Positions 42,610 to 54,109 of a DNA stretch of 64,000 nucleotides are shown one piece after another. Each line of letters starts with the position of its first letter. Position 1 is the stretch's first letter. The position numbers were made by a program, and so were the translations under genes. The stretch lies in contig NZ_JAFIQX010000005.1 in assembly GCF_017356035.1 (NCBI RefSeq), positions 1 through 64,000 on the forward strand. The letters are read 5' to 3'. This DNA is from Longitalea luteola. GTDB taxonomy: Bacteria; Bacteroidota; Bacteroidia; Chitinophagales; Chitinophagaceae. The notes below the pieces were generated by a model, which did not search any database, had not been told where the DNA came from, and saw only the letters and a list, made by a program, of their open reading frames with translations.

Positions 42610-45600
42610 GCTGTGATTTACTTTCAAAATATTCTGTACATTGGATCAGCGACAGCGGGTTGGTCTCGCTTAATTATGCCTTGGCCCGTTGTGAATTGCT
42701 TGCAAATATTCTGTAGATTAGATCAGCGACAGCCTTGTCTCGATATACAGGACCTCCCCACATGTTGTGATTTACTTTCAAATTATTCTGTACATTGGAT
42801 CAGCGACAGCTTTAGGCTATGGAACATACCGTTTACTGCTGTTGTGATTTACTTTCAAATTATTCTGTACATTGGATCAGCGACAGCCCTGATTTAAAAT
42901 CAATTAAAAATATCGCAGTTGTGATTTACTTTCAAATTATTCTGTACATTGGATCAGCGACAGCGAGGACTACATTGACCTGAAGCCCATACTAGTTGTG
43001 ATTTACTTTCAAATTATTCTGTACATTGGATCAGCGACAGCTCATATTGTTTCTTATCTAACAATAATTTGGTTGTGATTTACTTTCAAATTATTCTGTA
43101 CATTGGATCAGCGACAGCGATGGACGATAGGTATTAATGTCTGAACGAGTTGTGATTTACTTTCAAATTATTCTGTACATTGGATCAGCGACAGCTTTTC
43201 AAACAATAAGATTATGCGTTGCACGTTGTGATTTACTTTCAAATTATTCTGTACATTGGATCAGCGACAGCGAGATCCTTCTGATCCTTGCGCTTCGGTG
43301 TGTTGTGATTTACTTTCAAATTATTCTGTACATTGGATCAGCGACAGCAGCCAGGATTTACCCCCGCCAGCTCCGCCAGTTGTGATTTACTTTCAAATTA
43401 TTCTGTACATTGGATCAGCGACAGCTGTATAATCGATTACCGTCCAGTCAGGACAGTTGTGATTTACTTTCAAATTATTCTGTACATTGGATCAGCGACA
43501 GCTACCCGTCCAGCCTGTCGCGTTCGTGTTTTGTTGTGATTTACTTTCAAATTATTCTGTACATTGGATCAGCGACAGCTGTATCCGTAGAAAAGCTCTT
43601 GAAGCCATAGTTGTGATTTACTTTCAAATTATTCTGTACATTGGATCAGCGACAGCAGTCTGTGATCTCGCATCGGCCTCGCTTTGGTTGTGATTTACTT
43701 TCAAATTATTCTGTACATTGGATCAGCGACAGCTTTGGCGGCACTTGCTCAAATCTCCTTCTCGTTGTGATTTACTTTCAAATTATTCTGTACATTGGAT
43801 CAGCGACAGCTGATAGAACGGTTGGTAAAACAATTGAAGTGTTGTGATTTACTTTCAAATTATTCTGTACATTGGATCAGCGACAGCTCGGACGCGGTAC
43901 CATACACACCAACGTTTAGTTGTGATTTACTTTCAAATTATTCTGTACATTGGATCAGCGACAGCAAACTGAAACATTGGAATTATGATCGACAGTTGTG
44001 ATTTACTTTCAAATTATTCTGTACATTGGATCAGCGACAGCGGCTGTAAAAATCAATATAAGGGGTTATAGTTGTGATTTACTTTCAAATTATTCTGTAC
44101 ATTGGATCAGCGACAGCTACAGATTATATAACTTAACAATTCCCAATGTTGTGATTTACTTTCAAATTATTCTGTACATTGGATCAGCGACAGCAGCAAT
44201 TAAGAGACAGAATAAAAGAACATAGTTGTGATTTACTTTCAAATTATTCTGTACATTGGATCAGCGACAGCTATTTTTTCATGTAAGATTGTAATGGTTC
44301 CGTTGTGATTTACTTTCAAATTATTCTGTACATTGGATCAGCGACAGCAATAACCGCTGTCGATTATGATGGCCTCCTGGTTGTGATTTACTTTCAAATT
44401 ATTCTGTACATTGGATCAGCGACAGCCTGGGAAGGTTCAAAGTATATCGTTTCAGTGTTGTGATTTACTTTCAAATTATTCTGTACATTGGATCAGCGAC
44501 AGCGAAACACCTTACCGGTTGCTTTCGTGATTGGTTGTGATTTACTTTCAAATTATTCTGTACATTGGATCAGCGACAGCAACTTTCTGAAAAGGCGATG
44601 GACTATAACAGTTGTGATTTACTTTCAAATTATTCTGTACATTGGATCAGCGACAGCTCAGCAGGGTGAAAATCGCCTGCATCATCTGTTGTGATTTACT
44701 TTCAAATTATTCTGTACATTGGATCAGCGACAGCTGTCTACAAGACAGTTCAAAAGTCTTTTAAGTTGTGATTTACTTTCAAATTATTCTGTACATTGGA
44801 TCAGCGACAGCAGGATTTATAAGTATCTTACGAAAAGCCCTGTTGTGATTTACTTTCAAATTATTCTGTACATTGGATCAGCGACAGCAACAACACCCTC
44901 AACACCATCATACCCTTCGTTGTGATTTACTTTCAAATTATTCTGTACATTGGATCAGCGACAGCTGATTACGTAATAAACGCATCGGCAATTGCGTTGT
45001 GATTTACTTTCAAATTATTCTGTACATTGGATCAGCGACAGCGTATAATCTTTCTTTTCAATAACCTTTGGGTTGTGATTTACTTTCAAATTATTCTGTA
45101 CATTGGATCAGCGACAGCATAAATCAGTGTATCCTTGCTATCATGTTGGTTGTGATTTACTTTCAAATTATTCTGTACATTGGATCAGCGACAGCTTTCT
45201 ACTACCGGTAAACTATAACAATGCGGTTGTGATTTACTTTCAAATTATTCTGTACATTGGATCAGCGACAGCCTATTCGTCTGGATATTCAGCGGCTTTC
45301 TTGTTGTGATTTACTTTCAAATTATTCTGTACATTGGATCAGCGACAGCTACAATAAGAAATGTATTCCTTTCATCCTTGTTGTGATTTACTTTCAAATT
45401 ATTCTGTACATTGGATCAGCGACAGCCTTCATCGGACGTACCTATAGCGCGGCCCGGTTGTGATTTACTTTCAAATTATTCTGTACATTGGATCAGCGAC
45501 AGCAGTTTCAAGGGACGATTTATACCAATGGTGGTTGTGATTTACTTTCAAATTATTCTGTACATTGGATCAGCGACAGCGATATTTTCATCGACTTAAT

Positions 45601-46426
45601 GTGCATGTCAGTTGTGATTTACTTTCAAATTATTCTGTACATTGGATCAGCGACAGCCGCACCCAAGCTAGGCACATTTGGCATGGGGTTGTGATTTACT
45701 TTCAAATTATTCTGTACATTGGATCAGCGACAGCTAAACGATTTTGTATTAATCGACGGCAGCAGTTGTGATTTACTTTCAAATTATTCTGTACATTGGA
45801 TCAGCGACAGCATCCGATACGCGTAAACCTAAGTAGCAATCGTTGTGATTTACTTTCAAATTATTCTGTACATTGGATCAGCGACAGCATAAGGCTAATG
45901 GCATGAGGTTCCAGTTCAGTTGTGATTTACTTTCAAATTATTCTGTACATTGGATCAGCGACAGCCTGCACTCACCTTTAAGCATAACATATTCGTTGTG
46001 ATTTACTTTCAAATTATTCTGTACATTGGATCAGCGACAGCCTCCTTTGCATACTTCCCCGTCAACCGGCTGTTGTGATTTACTTTCAAATTATTCTGTA
46101 CATTGGATCAGCGACAGCCTTCTTTAAACGTCTTCGGTATTACTCACCGTTGTGATTTACTTTCAAATTATTCTGTACATTGGATCAGCGACAGCTTGAT
46201 TTGTATTTCATATTCGTTTATTGCTGTTGTGATTTACTTTCAAATTATTCTGTACATTGGATCAGCGACAGCCATTAGGAATCGGCATGAATATGTCTCA
46301 AAGTTGTGATTTACTTTCAAATTATTCTGTACATTGGATCAGCGACAGCCGGACCTACCAGCAACACCACCAGCAGTAGGTTGTGATTTACTTTCAAATT
46401 ATTCTGTACATTGGATCAGCGACAGC
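42610..46426 (+). CRISPR. Type II-C CRISPR array, 50 repeats and 49 spacers
   Basis: The 47-base repeat begins GTTGTGATTTACTTTCAAAT and ends GATCAGCGACAGC. Spacers are 29-31 bases, mostly 30, so the period is near 77. I count 50 repeats, the last at 46380-46426. The first (42610-42656) has two changes and the second (42688-42733) about eight plus a deletion, so the oldest end is at 42.6 kb. The newest end is next to cas2. Bases 28-35 of each repeat, TACATTGG, resemble the -7 box TAnnTTTG in plus orientation, so crRNAs are probably made on the plus strand, each starting inside the previous repeat, toward the cas genes. The length and start of the repeat match the II-C repeats of Bacteroides and Capnocytophaga. 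Confidence 0.98.
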
Positions 46427-46525
46427 AGAATTGGCTAAAACCCAGTCCTGTTCTGCGTTCTGGCTGTTTTTTAGAATGAAAAATTGACGGAAAAATGGCT
46501 TTTTTCAATCCTGGGAAACGGATTT
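46427..46525. other. CRISPR leader between array and cas2
   Basis: About 99 AT-rich bases lie between the last repeat and the cas2 stop. They carry T runs (CTGTTTTTTAG, GGCTTTTTTCAATC) and no gene. As new spacers appear to enter at this end, it should hold the integration signal. Confidence 0.65.
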
Positions 46526-47808
<1,283 letters not shown>

Positions 47809-47929
47809 GAGGGTTGGAGTTATTTAACTGTAACGGGCAGAATATTGCTATTATTTTCCAGGAGCATGCATTGACATCAATTATTGATTATTGACAAGTT
47901 TTGAACCACATTCTCCAATAGCTTAAACT

Positions 47930-50900
47930 TTACAATTCCAAAACATTCCCCAACTTGTCTACCTTCAATTTGATACAGCATTTTTTGATCATTATTTCGT
48001 CCAGCGATTTTTCTTGTTTGTTTAATGATCCTAATTCTACTTTTTCTATTACCGTTTTGGAATAATTATGTGGAACAAAGAAACATTGTGGTCCTGTGAA
48101 GCTGGCTACTCTGTAGATTCTTTTCGAGATCTTTTCCCTTTCAGTTGACCAATTGATCATTTTGGTATTTTCCCCCTCCTCCGGTACATACACAAGATCA
48201 TTTGGTGAAAGTATAAAGTGCTTAAAGCCTTCTCTGGCCTCTACCAACGGCCATCCATTGGCTTTTGCTATGATCACCTCATCTAACCGTAACGTTTCAT
48301 ATTCCCTTTCTCCTGTCTGTATATTCTCGTAGATAACAAAGAAAAGGTTGGTGCCTTTTGCAGCTTCAACAAACTGCCCTTTCCTTATCTCAAATTTTCC
48401 TTTTGAATCTTCATAGATGGTGACTTTCGTGATTGGTTTGCCAGCTGTTTTCGTCAGGGCTTCCATTCCTTCGCCTGTAAAAGCGGCTTTAGGGTCGTTA
48501 TTCCATTTGGCCAGATGTGTCAATAGAATGTTTTTTAAACCATTTTTACTTTCTGTATTGTAGGTCGCTATTTTTTCCTTTATTTTTTCTGCAGTAAAAG
48601 TTTCATCGAGATTTACCCTGTTGCCATAGTATTCTTTCATGTACCACATCGTTACCTTATCTATCGGATTGCTATTGCTGTCAAAAGCCGGATTTTCTCT
48701 AAGTGCTTTTTTGATCTTTTTTTCATCCGGTCCTAACTGCTGTATGAGGTATAATAAATGTGCTTTTACTTTTCTGTCTGCGATTTTTTCGGGCTGTTTA
48801 ATAGCATCTCCAATGCTGCCTGATTTATATCTTCTGAACTGCAGTTTCCCTGAGACCGTTTCCTTATGCAATGGTTGCCTTACAGACCATAGTTCTCCTT
48901 TTGTTTGTGATACAAAATCCTTAACCCAGTGTCCATCTATTTCTATATACTTAAGATGTTTATTGACACCTTTGTTTAAAATGCGGTGACGGTTTTTAAA
49001 TGAAACGATGATCTGTTCCAACGCTTTTTCGGCGGCAGGAATAAAATAATGCCACGGTTCCTTAAAGTCTCTTGTCTTTTTGCTTTTGAGCAGTTTTAGA
49101 TATTTATATTTTTCGTTTTCGTCCTTTGTTTGTGCCTCGAGCGTATTTATATATTGAATATGTTCATGTAATGTACAGGCTGTAACAAGGGCATCAACTG
49201 CATGGTGTCGATGATCAATACGCTTTTCATAACCTTGCAGGTGGAGGCGGCGTTTGCCGTCCTCATCAGTAACATATTCAACTTTCCTGTCTCCTGTGAG
49301 TTTTTCCAGCCTTTCAAACCGTTCAATCAGCAAACGTTTCATCATGTCGTTCAGTCCCCACTTATATTTTAATTCGTCGGTTATTTGCCCAATGGTTGTT
49401 TTTACTTTTTTGCTTTCAACGACCTGAGACAGCAGTTCTACAACTTTTTTTGTAATGTACCTGGTGTCATTCAATTGGCGTTGAATAAAACCTTCTGGAA
49501 TTTCATCACTTAGCAAGAGGCGGCGTTTTTTCTGACGGAAGACTCTGTTAACGTGAGCAGAGAAATCTTCCACAGAGAGCAGGTCTCCTTTTGAGCTTCT
49601 CCTCCGGATATATTGCATGGCAGTGAGGTTATCCTTTTCTGCATTTGCCCAGGTTTCTACAATTACCTTATTGGCCATGGAATCATCATAATATCTTGAC
49701 CGCGGTATTATGTGATCTACATCATAATCCCGTGTAAATAGACGTGACAGTTGAATAGGTTTGCCGGTATAAGGAGAAATACAATTTTGCTCGACCCATA
49801 ACCTGTATTTTTCGATCTCGGCACCGGTTGGCTCAGATGCTTTTTTAAAGAACTTTAAATAATTAGCCTGCGCTGCGTAGTTGCCATTTTCTTCCAATAT
49901 GCGCATTCTGTCAATGTCAGCTAATGATTCAGGATCGCCCAGTTTCAGTTCCCGCAGAATTGCTTTTATCCGGCGTTTGTCTTCCTGGTTTTTAAAATTA
50001 ACTGCAGACAATTCCTTTCTTTCGTCAGCGGTTTTTTTGAGGTCTCTCGCTAACTCAATCCTAATTTCATCTGGTCTGCCATATTGCTTCCATACTGCTT
50101 TCACAACCTGGATCGTTTCATTCACAACCTGTTTCACGATTGGGTTGGCTGGGCCCTTGCCTTCCCAGCCTTTCATCAAGTCTGGATTATCAACCGGTTC
50201 ACCTGTCTTCTCGCTGTGTTTGCCATAAATTACATAGGTAGCCAGGTGTTCGGGAAGCCCTTGAAATTGATCAAGGCTCGTACAATGAGTCAGCAGCCCT
50301 CTTATTCTATCATCAATACTTTCATCAAATTCACCGGTTAATATCTTTTCAATCTTTCCGAGCGTATCAGTATCGATAGCTGCTGCAGTCCATTGTTTAC
50401 CACATCGCATTAAAGGCAACATTTTATTAAGCGCCTTGCTGCTATAAGCGCCATATTGCGATGGGTACGCAGGTAGATTAGCTACAGCTTTTGCAACGTT
50501 TTCAGGGAATTGCCATTTTTTTCGCTTTAAAGCATTTTCAATGGCTGAGCTGTCGTCTATAGAATATACCAGATGCCATAAGCTGTTCATTTTGTCTGCG
50601 TCCAGCATAAGGTTAATGCCCGCTTCAAATTTCAACCGGTTAAATAATTTCCGGAACTGGGACTTTGTTGTATTACCCTTAAATCTGGTGTTGTCAGGAT
50701 AATTGATGTAGTGCGTTTCGGATGATAACTTCAGAAATTTTAAAATATCTTTTAATTCAACTTCTTCGCGGTTGTCGAAGAAATAGAATAAGGATTCTTT
50801 CACGGCTGATGTTAGATAGATCGCAGTCTCATCTACGTCCGTTTTCAACTCACCATTGATCTTCTTTTCTTTGACGAATATTTTTAAAGTGTGAATGGTT

Positions 50901-52132
50901 TTCCATATTCTGAACTCCTGGAAAAGGGGAGCACTGGCCGGAATAACTTTTAACGCAGGTTGAACGTCATTACCTTTTGCATCTTTTAACCAGACTGATT
51001 TTTTTTCAAAACGGCAATCGCCAATGGTGCTTATTTTTGATTTCAACGGACGTTGATAATAAATGATATCGTGAAGAAGCACATGTAGGAGGTCGTTTGC
51101 CTGGATCTCTTTCCTTTTTTCCTGGTTGTGAGTATAAAGCGCATCTGCGATCTCATTGTTTTTATTTAGAGCCGATAGCTCAGGATGAAATTGTTTTTGT
51201 GTATCCCAAATAGCCGTTAGCTCTGCAATGAACAGGGAACGATCGACGATCCTTTCTCTGACCCTGTAGTTCCTGTTCTTTAACATCTCATTAAGCACGT
51301 ATTCCCCGATATGCAATCCAGCTGCAGAAATGTCCTTTTGCAGTGCTTCTTTCATTTTTTGCCAGTCGCTTTTATTTGGCATGGCAAATTCGTATCGGGG
51401 CGTTGGATCTTTTTTGCTTCTGATCGTTCTGATCTCCAGTTCCATTTCTTTTCCTTCCCAATCCGGGGGAGTATCTCTACTAATCGTTCCTCTAATGCCA
51501 TTTGCTAAAGTGATCTCAAATACTTTTTTTCCGCGGGTAATTTCACCCGTATCTTTTACGGCTGTTATAGAAACTACTTCTATTTTGTTTTCCCTGGCTG
51601 GCAGTTGATCTTCTTGTTCACTATTGTTATCTGCCGGAGCTTCATTGTTGGCCTTGCGGTTGCTTTTAAAACCACGGCGTTGGTTCATGTGCAGTAATAT
51701 TCTGGCTAATTCGGTTAATTCTATTTTTTCGGTTAATGCTTTTTTGCGTAGATAATACACCAGCCAGTCCTGGGTTATTTGGGTGGTGCCGAACAGTGTG
51801 TGCATTTCAGCCAGTCTTTCTGGTAATACCGGTAGTATATGGCCTGGGGTGAAATTATCCGGGAGCCATCCAAGAACCTTTAGAACAGCAATCAGCCTTT
51901 TTCTTCTCAGTTTATACCGGTCTTTGAGTCGCCGGCTTCCCCGGGCCTGGCGTCGGTTAGCGGTTTGAGAAACAGAAACACCTGCTTCATAGTTGCCAAG
52001 CATTTCCCCATCCATGGGAATAATGCGGCAACCCATGCCAAGGATCTTACTGTCGTTATTTCCAAATTCATAATCAACCAGCGCCCAACCAATGCTGTTG
52101 GTGCCAATGTCTAAACCAAGGATTTTTTGCAT
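47930..52132 (-). CDS. cas9: Cas9 nuclease, type II-C
   Basis: This protein has 1,400 residues, near the larger end of II-C Cas9. RuvC-I is at the start (KILGLDIGTNSIGWAL, Asp8). The Arg-rich bridge helix is at about 55-84 (NRRQARGSRRLKDRYKLRRK). RuvC-II is at 690-698 (IRIELARDL, Glu693). The HNH domain is at about 785-825 with DYDVDHIIPRSRYYDD (His807) and MANKVIV (Asn821). RuvC-III is at 971-981 (RIDHRHHAVDAL, His977, Asp980). All catalytic residues are present, so it should cut. A low-complexity acidic stretch at about 160-185 (NNEAPADNNSEQEDQ) lies early in the recognition lobe. No csn2 or cas4 is present. The PAM cannot be read from sequence. Confidence 0.98.
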   Translation of the reverse strand: MQKILGLDIGTNSIGWALVDYEFGNNDSKILGMGCRIIPMDGEMLGNYEAGVSVSQTANRRQARGSRRLKDRYKLRRKRLIAVLKVLGWLPDNFTPGHILPVLPERLAEMHTLFGTTQITQDWLVYYLRKKALTEKIELTELARILLHMNQRRGFKSNRKANNEAPADNNSEQEDQLPARENKIEVVSITAVKDTGEITRGKKVFEITLANGIRGTISRDTPPDWEGKEMELEIRTIRSKKDPTPRYEFAMPNKSDWQKMKEALQKDISAAGLHIGEYVLNEMLKNRNYRVRERIVDRSLFIAELTAIWDTQKQFHPELSALNKNNEIADALYTHNQEKRKEIQANDLLHVLLHDIIYYQRPLKSKISTIGDCRFEKKSVWLKDAKGNDVQPALKVIPASAPLFQEFRIWKTIHTLKIFVKEKKINGELKTDVDETAIYLTSAVKESLFYFFDNREEVELKDILKFLKLSSETHYINYPDNTRFKGNTTKSQFRKLFNRLKFEAGINLMLDADKMNSLWHLVYSIDDSSAIENALKRKKWQFPENVAKAVANLPAYPSQYGAYSSKALNKMLPLMRCGKQWTAAAIDTDTLGKIEKILTGEFDESIDDRIRGLLTHCTSLDQFQGLPEHLATYVIYGKHSEKTGEPVDNPDLMKGWEGKGPANPIVKQVVNETIQVVKAVWKQYGRPDEIRIELARDLKKTADERKELSAVNFKNQEDKRRIKAILRELKLGDPESLADIDRMRILEENGNYAAQANYLKFFKKASEPTGAEIEKYRLWVEQNCISPYTGKPIQLSRLFTRDYDVDHIIPRSRYYDDSMANKVIVETWANAEKDNLTAMQYIRRRSSKGDLLSVEDFSAHVNRVFRQKKRRLLLSDEIPEGFIQRQLNDTRYITKKVVELLSQVVESKKVKTTIGQITDELKYKWGLNDMMKRLLIERFERLEKLTGDRKVEYVTDEDGKRRLHLQGYEKRIDHRHHAVDALVTACTLHEHIQYINTLEAQTKDENEKYKYLKLLKSKKTRDFKEPWHYFIPAAEKALEQIIVSFKNRHRILNKGVNKHLKYIEIDGHWVKDFVSQTKGELWSVRQPLHKETVSGKLQFRRYKSGSIGDAIKQPEKIADRKVKAHLLYLIQQLGPDEKKIKKALRENPAFDSNSNPIDKVTMWYMKEYYGNRVNLDETFTAEKIKEKIATYNTESKNGLKNILLTHLAKWNNDPKAAFTGEGMEALTKTAGKPITKVTIYEDSKGKFEIRKGQFVEAAKGTNLFFVIYENIQTGEREYETLRLDEVIIAKANGWPLVEAREGFKHFILSPNDLVYVPEEGENTKMINWSTEREKISKRIYRVASFTGPQCFFVPHNYSKTVIEKVELGSLNKQEKSLDEIMIKKCCIKLKVDKLGNVLEL

Positions 52133-52151
52133 AGCAATCGTTTCGATTATA

Positions 52152-52219
52152 AATAATTAAAGTAAATCACAACTAGTACTATTTAATACAATTTTGTTGT
52201 ATCTTAAATACTAAATGTA
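52152..52219 (-). other. Repeat-like element in the cas9 leader, candidate crRNA-like RNA
   Basis: On the minus strand, 52173-52152 reads GTTGTGATTTACTTT followed by AATTATT, which is 22 of the first 24 bases of the CRISPR repeat with CA deleted. It lies 19 bp before the cas9 ATG. Upstream of it are 30-38 bases unlike the repeat. TACATTTA at 52219-52212 is one base off TAnnTTTG and is placed about where the -7-like box sits before a spacer in the array (38 bases to the repeat here, 42 there). A transcript from it would look like one spacer plus a repeat. The last 10 bases before the repeat, AATAGTACTA, recur on the plus strand at 52304-52313. A simple cas9 leader with an old repeat fragment is the alternative. 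Confidence 0.5.
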
Positions 52220-52397
52220 TGTGTGGGATCGACGAAGACGTTAGGCCATATGTGCCTGACATAAAATTCTAACTCGCTCTTCTATATAAACAGAAAATGA
52301 TCGAATAGTACTATAAAATGGAAAATAAATTTTTTACTTTTATTATTTAGTTGACTTGAGTCAATACCGAAAACTGAAACTTATTGAATCATTTATA

Positions 52398-52405
52398 TAT
52401 CTTTG
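52398..52405 (+). promoter_or_regulatory. tracrRNA promoter -7 box
   Basis: TATCTTTG is an exact TAnnTTTG box. The anti-repeat of the tracrRNA begins 3-5 bases later, as in Bacteroides-type II-C loci. A clear TTG at -33 is lacking. Confidence 0.75.
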
Positions 52406-52490
52406 CTTTGAAGTAAATCACAATAAGGATTATTCCGCAGTGAAAACTTTTACAGTAGTCCCGCCAACAGGCGGGATTGGTGTTTTATAT
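52406..52490 (+). ncRNA. tracrRNA
   Basis: TTTGAAGTAAATCACAAT (52107-relative: bases 52407-52424) pairs with the first 19 bases of the CRISPR repeat on the plus strand, with one bulge. It is followed by TAAGGATTATTCCG, a small stem-loop placed where other Bacteroidota II-C tracrRNAs have one. A terminator hairpin follows, TCCCGCC-AACA-GGCGGGA at 52459-52476, then ATTGGTGTTTTAT. It is transcribed away from cas9. Its mature job is to pair with crRNA and load it into Cas9. The 5' end is estimated from the promoter box and may be off by a few bases. Confidence 0.85.
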
Positions 52491-52514
52491 ACACTCACCG
52501 GCCTCACACAACCA

Positions 52515-52982
52515 TCATCCTTTCTTCCCCACCATCCCCATCACCTCCTCCACAAATCCCACCTGCGCCGGCAGTAATTTCAATTTTGCGGTCCCGGCAT
52601 CAAACCATTCAAATTTGTCAAGCTCAGGCACATCGATCATTTTGCCCGACTTCGGCGGCCATTCCAATGAAAAGGTATTGCTTCGAATATTATCGATTGG
52701 AAAATCAGTTTCAATGGCCCATACATGCACCAGCTTGCCGCTCTTTTGCCTGCGTGGTGTCAATGGTATAAACCTGCCATCGATCTCAATATTCGTTTCC
52801 TCTTTAAATTCCCTGATGGCTGCAGCCAGCGGTTCCTCCCCTTCGTCCATTTCGCCTTTTACAATACTCCAATAGCCATTGTCCTTCTTGCGGTAAAACG
52901 GACCGCCCGGATGCGCTATAAAGAAGTACAGCTGCTTCTTCACAAATTTGTATGGCAAAATGCCGGCACTTTGCTTTTTCAT
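52515..52982 (-). CDS. NUDIX hydrolase
   Basis: This 155-residue protein has the NUDIX box: GEMDEGEEPLAAAIREF followed by KEETNIEIDG, matching Gx5Ex7REUxEExGU, at about 43-67. The start SAGILPYKF and FFIAHPGGPFY are like MutT/NUDIX proteins of the diadenosine tetraphosphate type. Its substrate is a nucleoside diphosphate linked to another group; which one is unknown. It is convergent with the tracrRNA, and the terminator hairpin lies between them. Confidence 0.92.
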   Translation of the reverse strand: MKKQSAGILPYKFVKKQLYFFIAHPGGPFYRKKDNGYWSIVKGEMDEGEEPLAAAIREFKEETNIEIDGRFIPLTPRRQKSGKLVHVWAIETDFPIDNIRSNTFSLEWPPKSGKMIDVPELDKFEWFDAGTAKLKLLPAQVGFVEEVMGMVGKKG

Positions 52983-54109
52983 ACCAGTAAGTTACCGCAC
53001 TTTTCCATGTTTTGATCTTTCATTTTTCAAGCTGAGTGCTTCATTTCCGGGATTGATATTCCTGTTTATTGTTTTTGATCACCAATTTGGAGGTTTTAAT
53101 ACTTCATAAGTGAAATTGAAGATCACTTTTGTTGAATGATGCACATAGTTTATAGTTTTGATATATACTTTTAGCAAATTGAGTTTCTCTTTTGTTTATT
53201 TGTTACGCCATTTCGCTAAAAGCAGTGCGTCTTTTGTTTTATTGTTCATACAGTTTGTCAAATGGTTATCCCTATTCGGAAAAAGTTGTGCTCCATTCGC
53301 TCATGTGTGTACCTGATCTTGAAATTTATTTACATCATTCAATAAAAGATTTATAAAATCCTGCCATTGATTTATTGAAGTAAGAAAATGCACTATTCAA
53401 TTCAACTAAAGATTTATAGTATTGATTAAAAGAATAACAGGATTTAACAAAAGGACGATCGAATTCAGAAAAAGCATGGGTGAATCAGAAAAAAGATAAA
53501 GCGCAAGCGGCTGGTCGTCGTTAACAGGCAACGTTGGCATCTTGACTTTTGCTTTTTGCATGCATTGTGAAGTGAATTTTGCCGCTGGTAATTGAACGTA
53601 CTCAGGTGTGTGCCTTCAAACGATATCGCCGGTATAGTAATGACTGGATTATAATACCGGGGTATGGTTAATGCCCGGCGAAATCCTGCTGCCATGATCA
53701 GTTTTGCTTGTGTTAAACAGTACACAAAGGGTGTCAATACCCGTCAATACCCGTCAGAACCCGCCATTTTGGGAGCCGTTATTTGGAAATCGCATAACAG
53801 CCACCGTATATTTGTTATGAACAATGACACCTGGATGAATAACCGAAGTTGTTGTTACCGGTAGAAGGAATCCGACAGTGACAGCGGTAATACAGCCAGG
53901 TGATTATGATCCTCCCGTATTGGCCAATACGTACTCCATCCAAGCCTCAATTCATAACGTTCAATAACTGTGTGTTACTTCTTTAGCAATGGTGCTAAAG
54001 CGATATTACCGGAACAGGGTGATGTACAGGCATTGTCATGGATAATTGGTACGGCTGTGAAACGTAGCGTAAGCGTAAACACTTTTATTAACTTTTTAAA
54101 TTATTTTTT
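52983..54109. other. 1.1-kb gap without a recognisable gene
   Basis: AT-rich, with no frame that looks coding. A -7-like TAGTTTTG lies at 53153-53160. Short CCCGTCA/CCCGCCA words occur near 53738-53765. A remnant of lost genes is possible but I cannot identify one. Confidence 0.6.

Follow-up and report, generated by a model that had tools for sequence, protein, structure and literature searches.

Why should the leader of a cas9 gene carry half a CRISPR repeat, far from the array, beside a spacer-like sequence that matches DNA farther upstream of the same gene? The question is raised by the window, the whole stretch of 64,000 nucleotides analysed here from Longitalea luteola, which contains a three-gene cas9-cas1-cas2 CRISPR locus (Table 1). 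By gene content the locus is of type II-C, the subtype defined by cas9, cas1 and cas2 with no fourth cas gene. Because the GLDIGTNSIGW and DVDHIIP motifs are present, its Cas9 is likely, judged from the protein sequence, to be an active nuclease. The two degenerate repeats of the array sit at its 5' end in the crRNA sense, opposite to cas2, so that the growing end is probably the one adjoining cas2. The tracrRNA gene is encoded upstream of cas9, on the other strand, with the solitary half-repeat between them; beyond the tracrRNA gene, and convergent with it, is a NUDIX-domain gene (52515-52982, minus strand). An Rfam search of 43500-54000 returned no family reaching its gathering score.

Table 1. 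Features of the cas9 locus and its upstream region in the window
Feature	Position	Strand	Remarks
CRISPR array	42612..46426	+	48 perfect 47-nt repeats from 42764, plus two degenerate repeats at 42612-42733
cas2	46526..46915	-	
cas1	46912..47808	-	
cas9	47930..52132	-	1400 aa; GLDIGTNSIGW and DVDHIIP motifs
Stand-alone 5' half of CRISPR repeat, cas9 leader	52152..52173	-	Predicted to pair with the tracrRNA anti-repeat
Spacer-like guide part	52174..52203	-	Seed AATAGTACTA at 52183-52174
-7-like box TACATTTA	52212..52219	-	Candidate promoter of guide and cas9 leader; putative role
Guide-seed target (protospacer-like), 10 nt	52304..52313	+	
PAM-like flank TAAAAT (NNAART)	52314..52319	+	
-7-like box TATCTTTG of the tracrRNA gene	52398..52405	+	Putative promoter role
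tracrRNA	52411..52480	+	Anti-repeat and core 52411-52438; terminator stem 52460-52475; 3' end approximate

An earlier note on this DNA had drawn attention to the half-repeat, to a -7 box ahead of it and to the recurrence of the adjoining seed, and all three observations were borne out. Read on the minus strand from 52173 to 52152, the half-repeat is GTTGTGATTTACTTT--AATTATT, in which 22 of the first 24 repeat bases are present if a 2-base deletion is allowed, 15 of them exact and consecutive; its distance to the cas9 ATG is 19 bp, and that to the end of the array (46426) about 5.7 kb. The box TACATTTA lies 38 bases upstream of the half-repeat, close to the spacing in the array, where TACATTGG precedes the next repeat by 42 bases, and AATAGTACTA does recur on the plus strand at its target. 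To these we add the TAAAAT flank of the target. The guide unit lies on the strand opposite to the tracrRNA, about 240 bp from the tracrRNA core. When the seed followed by NNAA was sought in the organism's own genome, three sites were found including the local one, against one for the reversed control; the other two are flanked by ATAAGC and CCAATG, and the best PAM-flanked target of the seed is the local one, upstream of cas9.

We consider it probable that a crRNA-like RNA, together with the tracrRNA, holds Cas9 upstream of its own gene without cutting, as negative feedback. The guide and target elements themselves are well supported; from them we infer that the guide is transcribed, loaded into Cas9, directs binding without cleavage and represses. 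In such a scheme the cas9 leader would encode a crRNA-like guide consisting of a spacer of about 30 nt followed by the 5' half of a repeat; the RNA would pair with the ordinary tracrRNA transcribed from the opposite strand and load Cas9, and the 10-nt seed would bring Cas9 to 52304-52313 beside the TAAAAT PAM. Because the match would be too short for cutting, Cas9 would remain bound and lower transcription of the guide and the cas9 leader; by analogy with tracr-L and scaRNA, a match of 10-14 nt may permit binding but not cleavage. More free Cas9 would strengthen repression, and array crRNAs or inhibitors occupying Cas9 would relieve it.

Conservation of the repeat fragment and the seed match in relatives had been proposed in the earlier note as a check, and both are kept, through paired change, in the two nearest relatives: Longitalea arenae (L009), whose Cas9 is 91% identical to that of the window, and Niastella yeongjuensis (L010, genome G365), at 83% identity, both Chitinophagaceae of the Bacteroidota. 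The unit occupies the same position in both as in the window, -41 from the cas9 start. In the order window, L009 and L010, the units GTTGTG, GCTGTG and GGTATG track the anti-repeats CACAAT, CACAGT and CATACT, so that unit:anti-repeat pairing is preserved at two varying positions. The array repeat of L009 likewise starts GCTGTG; no array was found by pattern in the G365 assembly, and the L010 repeat thus stands without array confirmation. In a 3 x 3 table of predicted duplex energies the cognate pair was best in every row and column (-18.6, -20.2 and -18.7 kcal/mol, against -11.9 to -16.8 kcal/mol for non-cognate duplexes). In a 12 x 12 table, for which the window and L055 anti-repeats were mis-picked by the script, the cognate was not always best, the L046 unit preferring the L009 anti-repeat. 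As a side observation, the L010 tracrRNA (about 280-370 nt before cas9) has the reverse orientation to those of the window and L009, being encoded on the cas9 strand.

The seeds vary in concert with their targets as well. Seeds AATAGTACTA, AAATATTATCTA and AATATTACTA (window, L009 and L010) have uninterrupted matches of 10, 12 and 10 nt to their own targets, and non-cognate matches within the trio run to 3 to 5 consecutive nt; since the window and L010 seeds differ by one substitution, their cross-matches still cover 9 and 10 of 12 positions. The base inserted in L009 is present in seed and target alike, as is the substitution between the window and L010, and the targets are flanked by TAAAAT, CAAAAT and CAAAAT, PAM-like throughout. 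The caution in the earlier note that TAGTACTA is a palindrome applies to the window, but not to the two relatives, whose seeds are not full palindromes and match nevertheless. When the three sequences were aligned, the target-PAM block and the guide block were conserved and the intervening sequence was more diverged; at the place matching the window box, TACTTATT (L009) and TACTATTC (L010) were read by eye as candidate promoter boxes.

Cas9 searches were carried out over 394 family, 396 order and 395 phylum genomes in overlapping samples, and loci were drawn among the matches listed; 141 loci with a cas9 start, 140 of them with at least 150 nt upstream, were hand-chosen among those matches, cas9-start loci first. 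L079 and L080 were excluded as copies of L009 and L010, and L137 and L139, which are identical upstream, were both counted. Beyond the trio, at least nine Bacteroidota cas9 loci carry a guide unit with an upstream target, with seeds of 9-14 nt: L043, L046, L048, L055, L056, L148, L156 and L264 (11-14 nt), and L107 (9 nt). The guide is directed away from cas9, with the target between the two, in L043, L046, L048, L055, L056, L156 and L107; L148, L264 and the trio have a guide on the cas9 strand with the target upstream of it. The spacer and half-repeat of L156, 353 nt before cas9, directly precede the tracrRNA and share its strand; guide and tracrRNA can fold together there, resembling a natural single-guide RNA, and a motif scan revealed no promoter for this guide. 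A further locus, L267, has two stand-alone repeats, 370 and 37 nt before cas9, and the spacer of the farther one matches, by eye, a site about 167 nt before cas9, with about 20 of 22 bases in agreement, a bulge and an 8-nt seed. In L148 a tRNA-like gene with an odd anticodon (ARAGORN, 1802-1873) lies between target and guide, so that the guide may be part of a transcript led by the tRNA. No closer unit-bearing pair emerged from genus searches around G175 and G015. The paired changes in the relatives and these nine further loci support the crRNA-like self-guide put forward in the earlier note, which would be expressed, loaded into Cas9 and repressive.

Because unit loci are scattered over a tree of 109 Cas9s, gain or loss of the unit probably happened repeatedly. 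A pattern search of the 700 nt ahead of cas9 detected a tracr-type anti-repeat in 120 of the 140 loci. Measured in 8 of the 12 unit loci (not L010, L048, L107 and L156), the gap between it and cas9 spans 281-400 nt, against a median of 61 nt in 112 other loci, five of which (L104, L256, L267, L269 and L282) exceed 150 nt; on inspection by eye of the first four, L104, L256 and L269 were without a unit, and L267 has the one described above. L269 has, 200 nt before cas9, an apparent decayed partial copy of the cas9 start. The distance from cas9 to the array is 1.35-1.8 kb in the 10 of 12 unit loci that have an array in the stretch, leaving space for two genes such as cas1 and cas2; the genes themselves were identified in the window.

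A PAM that is shared between foreign protospacers and the upstream targets was then sought. The array part 43995-46430 was searched against ten genus genomes, and two window spacers matched one stretch of G209 (L168), at 27 of 30 and 26 of 30 bases, the two sites being separated by about 220 bp; an open frame in this stretch matches a phage protein family of unknown function. The 3' flanks of the two protospacers, CAAAATCT and GTAAGTTC (starting CAAAAT and GTAAGT), both agree with NNAART, although the protospacers carry 3 and 4 mismatches and their flanks may have drifted. An 18-nt partial match of a third spacer in L187, flanked by GTGCAG, was treated as chance because its PAM-side bases do not match. 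Phage and plasmid records searched with the whole window array gave weak matches only, and the same protospacer search with the L009 array gave no usable protospacer. At the upstream targets, NNAAAT stands beside 7 of 12, three of the 7 being the close trio (5 of 10 with the trio counted once), against 1.7% of upstream positions, and the looser NNRA beside 11 of 12, against 18.9%. Departures from the PAM are seen in L264 and partly in L048 and L107. Fp2Cas9, the II-C enzyme of Flavobacterium psychrophilum, is described in the passage seen as preferring SNAAAG (PMC12609912) and is set beside the window Cas9 by PAM only.

Guide and target are mutually inverted in all 13 pairs (12 unit loci and L267). 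Seed and target might then be the arms of an inverted repeat, serving as an invertible promoter site or as the looping operator of a DNA-binding protein, for which the inversion of every pair at a separation of about 120-210 bp would be expected. We regard this as very unlikely: the arms vary by clade, yet one of them adjoins a repeat that can pair with the tracrRNA and the other adjoins NNRA in 11 of 12 cases. Nor do the two arrangements seen appear to be two states of one switch, because inverting the inner segment would leave the repeat unmoved.

How often would such matches arise by chance? Of 500 Markov shuffles of the upstream region of the window's cas9, one attained the 10-nt match; the corresponding figure was 5 of 500 for L010 and 0 of 500 for each of six other loci. 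Array spacers, where arrays were found, matched 430 bp around their own cas9 start over at least 10 nt in 6 of 2078 cases, one of the six being a spacer of the window (10 nt, flank TCGGTATT, not PAM-like). The match length is therefore unusual but not unique, and the weight of the case comes from the relatives and the PAM. Nine unit spacers matched other loci over at least 10 nt in 3 of 894 tests, against 9 of 9 at their own locus, a figure that is descriptive and no fresh test, all nine matches having been seen beforehand. Among 120 tracr anti-repeats handled as units, one reached 10 nt.

Combining a repeat match of at least 12/15 with a seed of at least 10 nt gave 10 observed cases (nine units and one tracr anti-repeat, L231) against one for a reversed-repeat control. 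At 11/15, the level at which L010 and L043 pass, the two counts were equal at 2 and 2; L010 was kept because of homology and L043 because one inserted base explains its mismatches. A 10/15 match with a seed of at least 10 nt gave 16 against 7, many of them from the L149 array and the L135 tandem repeat, and none was used. L156, L264 and L107 were noticed via their seed match. In a set chosen without regard to the seed (stand-alone repeats matching at least 13/15, n = 17), 7 had a seed of at least 10 nt and 10 did not; the latter include likely chance and array-related matches, but also the real-looking L106, L161 and L267. Repeats of this kind, devoid of a target, could be left by the decay of a spacer-repeat unit or be functionless duplicates of the tracrRNA anti-repeat, and the window unit is indeed truncated and 81% similar to the tracrRNA region over 27 nt. 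We nevertheless find a functionless relic extremely unlikely, two kinds of paired change having persisted over three species despite the divergence of the sequence between them.

The repeat start is also found elsewhere in the genus. The 15-mer TTGTGATTTACTTTC, with which the CRISPR repeat begins, was located at 17 sites outside arrays among 10 genus genomes, its reversed control at none; an open frame begins 37-85 nt downstream of 11 of the 17 (only the same strand was scanned). Copies lie in the organism's own genome (G000:C39:86112, minus strand; G000:C38:513656, plus strand), in L041, L042 and L188-L208, and in G253 and G386, where no match to the window Cas9 was found (G386 is 61% complete). 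The motif may represent a promoter or leader element that the repeat has in common with these sites, or may mark a set of tracrRNA-pairing leaders. In G342, another genus member with no match to the window Cas9 found, a solitary full-length CRISPR-like repeat (GCTGTG...CACAGC) stands shortly before an ATG (L293, about 1483-1529, G342:C55). If the repeat fragment ahead of cas9 were simply a common promoter or leader element in this genus, and the 10-nt match a coincidence, one would expect copies such as the nine that were checked, none of which has a local seed match longer than 7 nt; the array spacer that also attains 10 nt would fit as well. Such a coincidence is quite improbable in view of L010, where the unit GTATGATTTACTTT follows its own tracrRNA although that genome has six copies of the motif, and of the concordance of seed, target and PAM in the relatives.

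The step from binding to repression was considered in the light of candidate promoters. In the window the target is flanked by two such boxes, the -7-like TACATTTA about 85 bp downstream of it and a weak -7-like TAAGTTTC about 70 bp upstream. A stricter promoter scan, using a generic consensus, found no cas9-strand promoter in the window or L010, and for this reason the step is weakest in these two. In the same scan, which had no chance control, a promoter beside the target was seen only in L009 and L055 and doubtfully in L056: the L055 target starts about 13 nt after the predicted start, the L009 target and PAM are at the predicted start, and in L056 a weak promoter with an odd start overlaps the target. 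The predicted start in L107 is 30 nt before its repeat. Terminator-like hairpins follow the L046, L056 and L107 units, and L048 has a long hairpin without a T-run, in a scan that gives the best hairpin for every unit and had no control.

Control might instead operate at the level of the leader only, the repeat in the cas9 leader pairing with the tracrRNA so that RNase III or Cas9 cuts or masks the message, with the DNA target incidental. The window unit, which precedes the cas9 start codon by 19 bp on the strand of the gene and has good predicted pairing to the tracrRNA, is placed as this would require. In L043, L046, L048, L055 and L056, however, the unit is on the other strand and hence outside the cas9 message, and such units equal the target strand and are not complementary to the message; the paired change of seed and target and the agreement of the PAM would also be left unexplained. 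Leader-level control as the sole mechanism is therefore improbable in our estimation, but it could act in addition to DNA targeting. Antisense pairing with the cas9 message at the target is excluded for the opposite-strand guides, because the guide sequence is that of the target strand, and the PAM points to DNA as the target of the self-guide.

A broader reading is advanced tentatively, as one that may well prove incorrect. Bacteroidota II-C-like systems would have evolved self-aimed guides repeatedly and independently, in three layouts, namely a divergent small-RNA gene, a cas9-leader unit and a tracrRNA fusion, and in the clade of the window the guide would be cut from the cas9 message to give feedback at two levels. 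Production of the guide would then process the cas9 message as well as repress its promoter, gauging free Cas9 and tracrRNA. On the main reading, for its part, the guide would compete with array crRNAs for tracrRNA and Cas9 and could therefore sense crRNA load and anti-CRISPR attack. A pair of guide and target also allows the PAM of a Cas9 to be read from its locus alone, and the patchy spread over the Cas9 tree permits asking what selects for the unit.

Self-guides have been described in other CRISPR subtypes. In the titles, abstract openings and passages seen of the literature on II-C, no stand-alone self-targeting guide was found; a separate self-guide in a II-C-like locus would be a novel form beside tracr-L and CreR, and an earlier report elsewhere is possible. 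Repeat-like scaRNAs were predicted in II-A and II-C loci by Guzina 2018, the II-C cases in the parts seen being Neisseria and Pasteurella, with targets not identified (PMC6199352); the strings 'bacteroid' and 'flavobacter' are absent from its main text. The II-C scaRNA of Neisseria meningitidis, which has repeat:anti-repeat-like parts and is bound by Cas9, is described as a post-transcriptional regulator of efeUOB (PMC13431127); like the window unit it is a II-C-associated small RNA, but in the passages seen it is not presented as a guide to cas9.

In Francisella novicida the degenerate repeat of scaRNA pairs with tracrRNA and, through a 15-bp match, Cas9 represses without cutting, according to the passages seen (PMC8730458, PMC9458426). 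A degenerate repeat is likewise predicted to pair with tracrRNA in the window, with paired change; the scaRNA targets are lipoprotein genes, whereas the best PAM-flanked target of the window seed is upstream of cas9 itself. CreR is a crRNA-like RNA that represses cas genes through a partial match to a cas promoter (PMC13131331, PMC12737573), and is attributed in the parts seen to types I-B, I-E and V-A (PMC13131331) or to type I and V-A (PMC12737573). The window shares with it a crRNA-like unit with a degenerate repeat outside the array, near the cas genes; the match upstream of cas9 is clear, and a motif-level promoter beside the target is seen only in L009, L055 and doubtfully L056. Unlike CreR, the window unit has one half-repeat after its spacer and would work through Cas9, dependent on tracrRNA, in a system that is not type I or V-A.

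A further close parallel is tracr-L of Streptococcus pyogenes, in which a short PAM-adjacent guide match holds Cas9 at the cas promoter without cutting; the match is given as 11 nt (PMC8616872) or 9 bp (PMC8730458) in the passages seen, and tracr-L is there a II-A element, not found in other subtypes (PMC8616872). The window too has a short PAM-flanked match upstream of cas9, of 10 nt beside TAAAAT. tracr-L is a long form of the tracrRNA itself, whereas in the window the guide unit is separate, crRNA-like and encoded on the strand opposite to the tracrRNA, and would need the ordinary tracrRNA, in a II-C-like locus; among the relatives only L156, with its guide ahead of the tracrRNA, has a tracr-L-like layout. 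If the reading proposed here is true, RNA-guided self-control of the effector extends to II-C-like Cas9.
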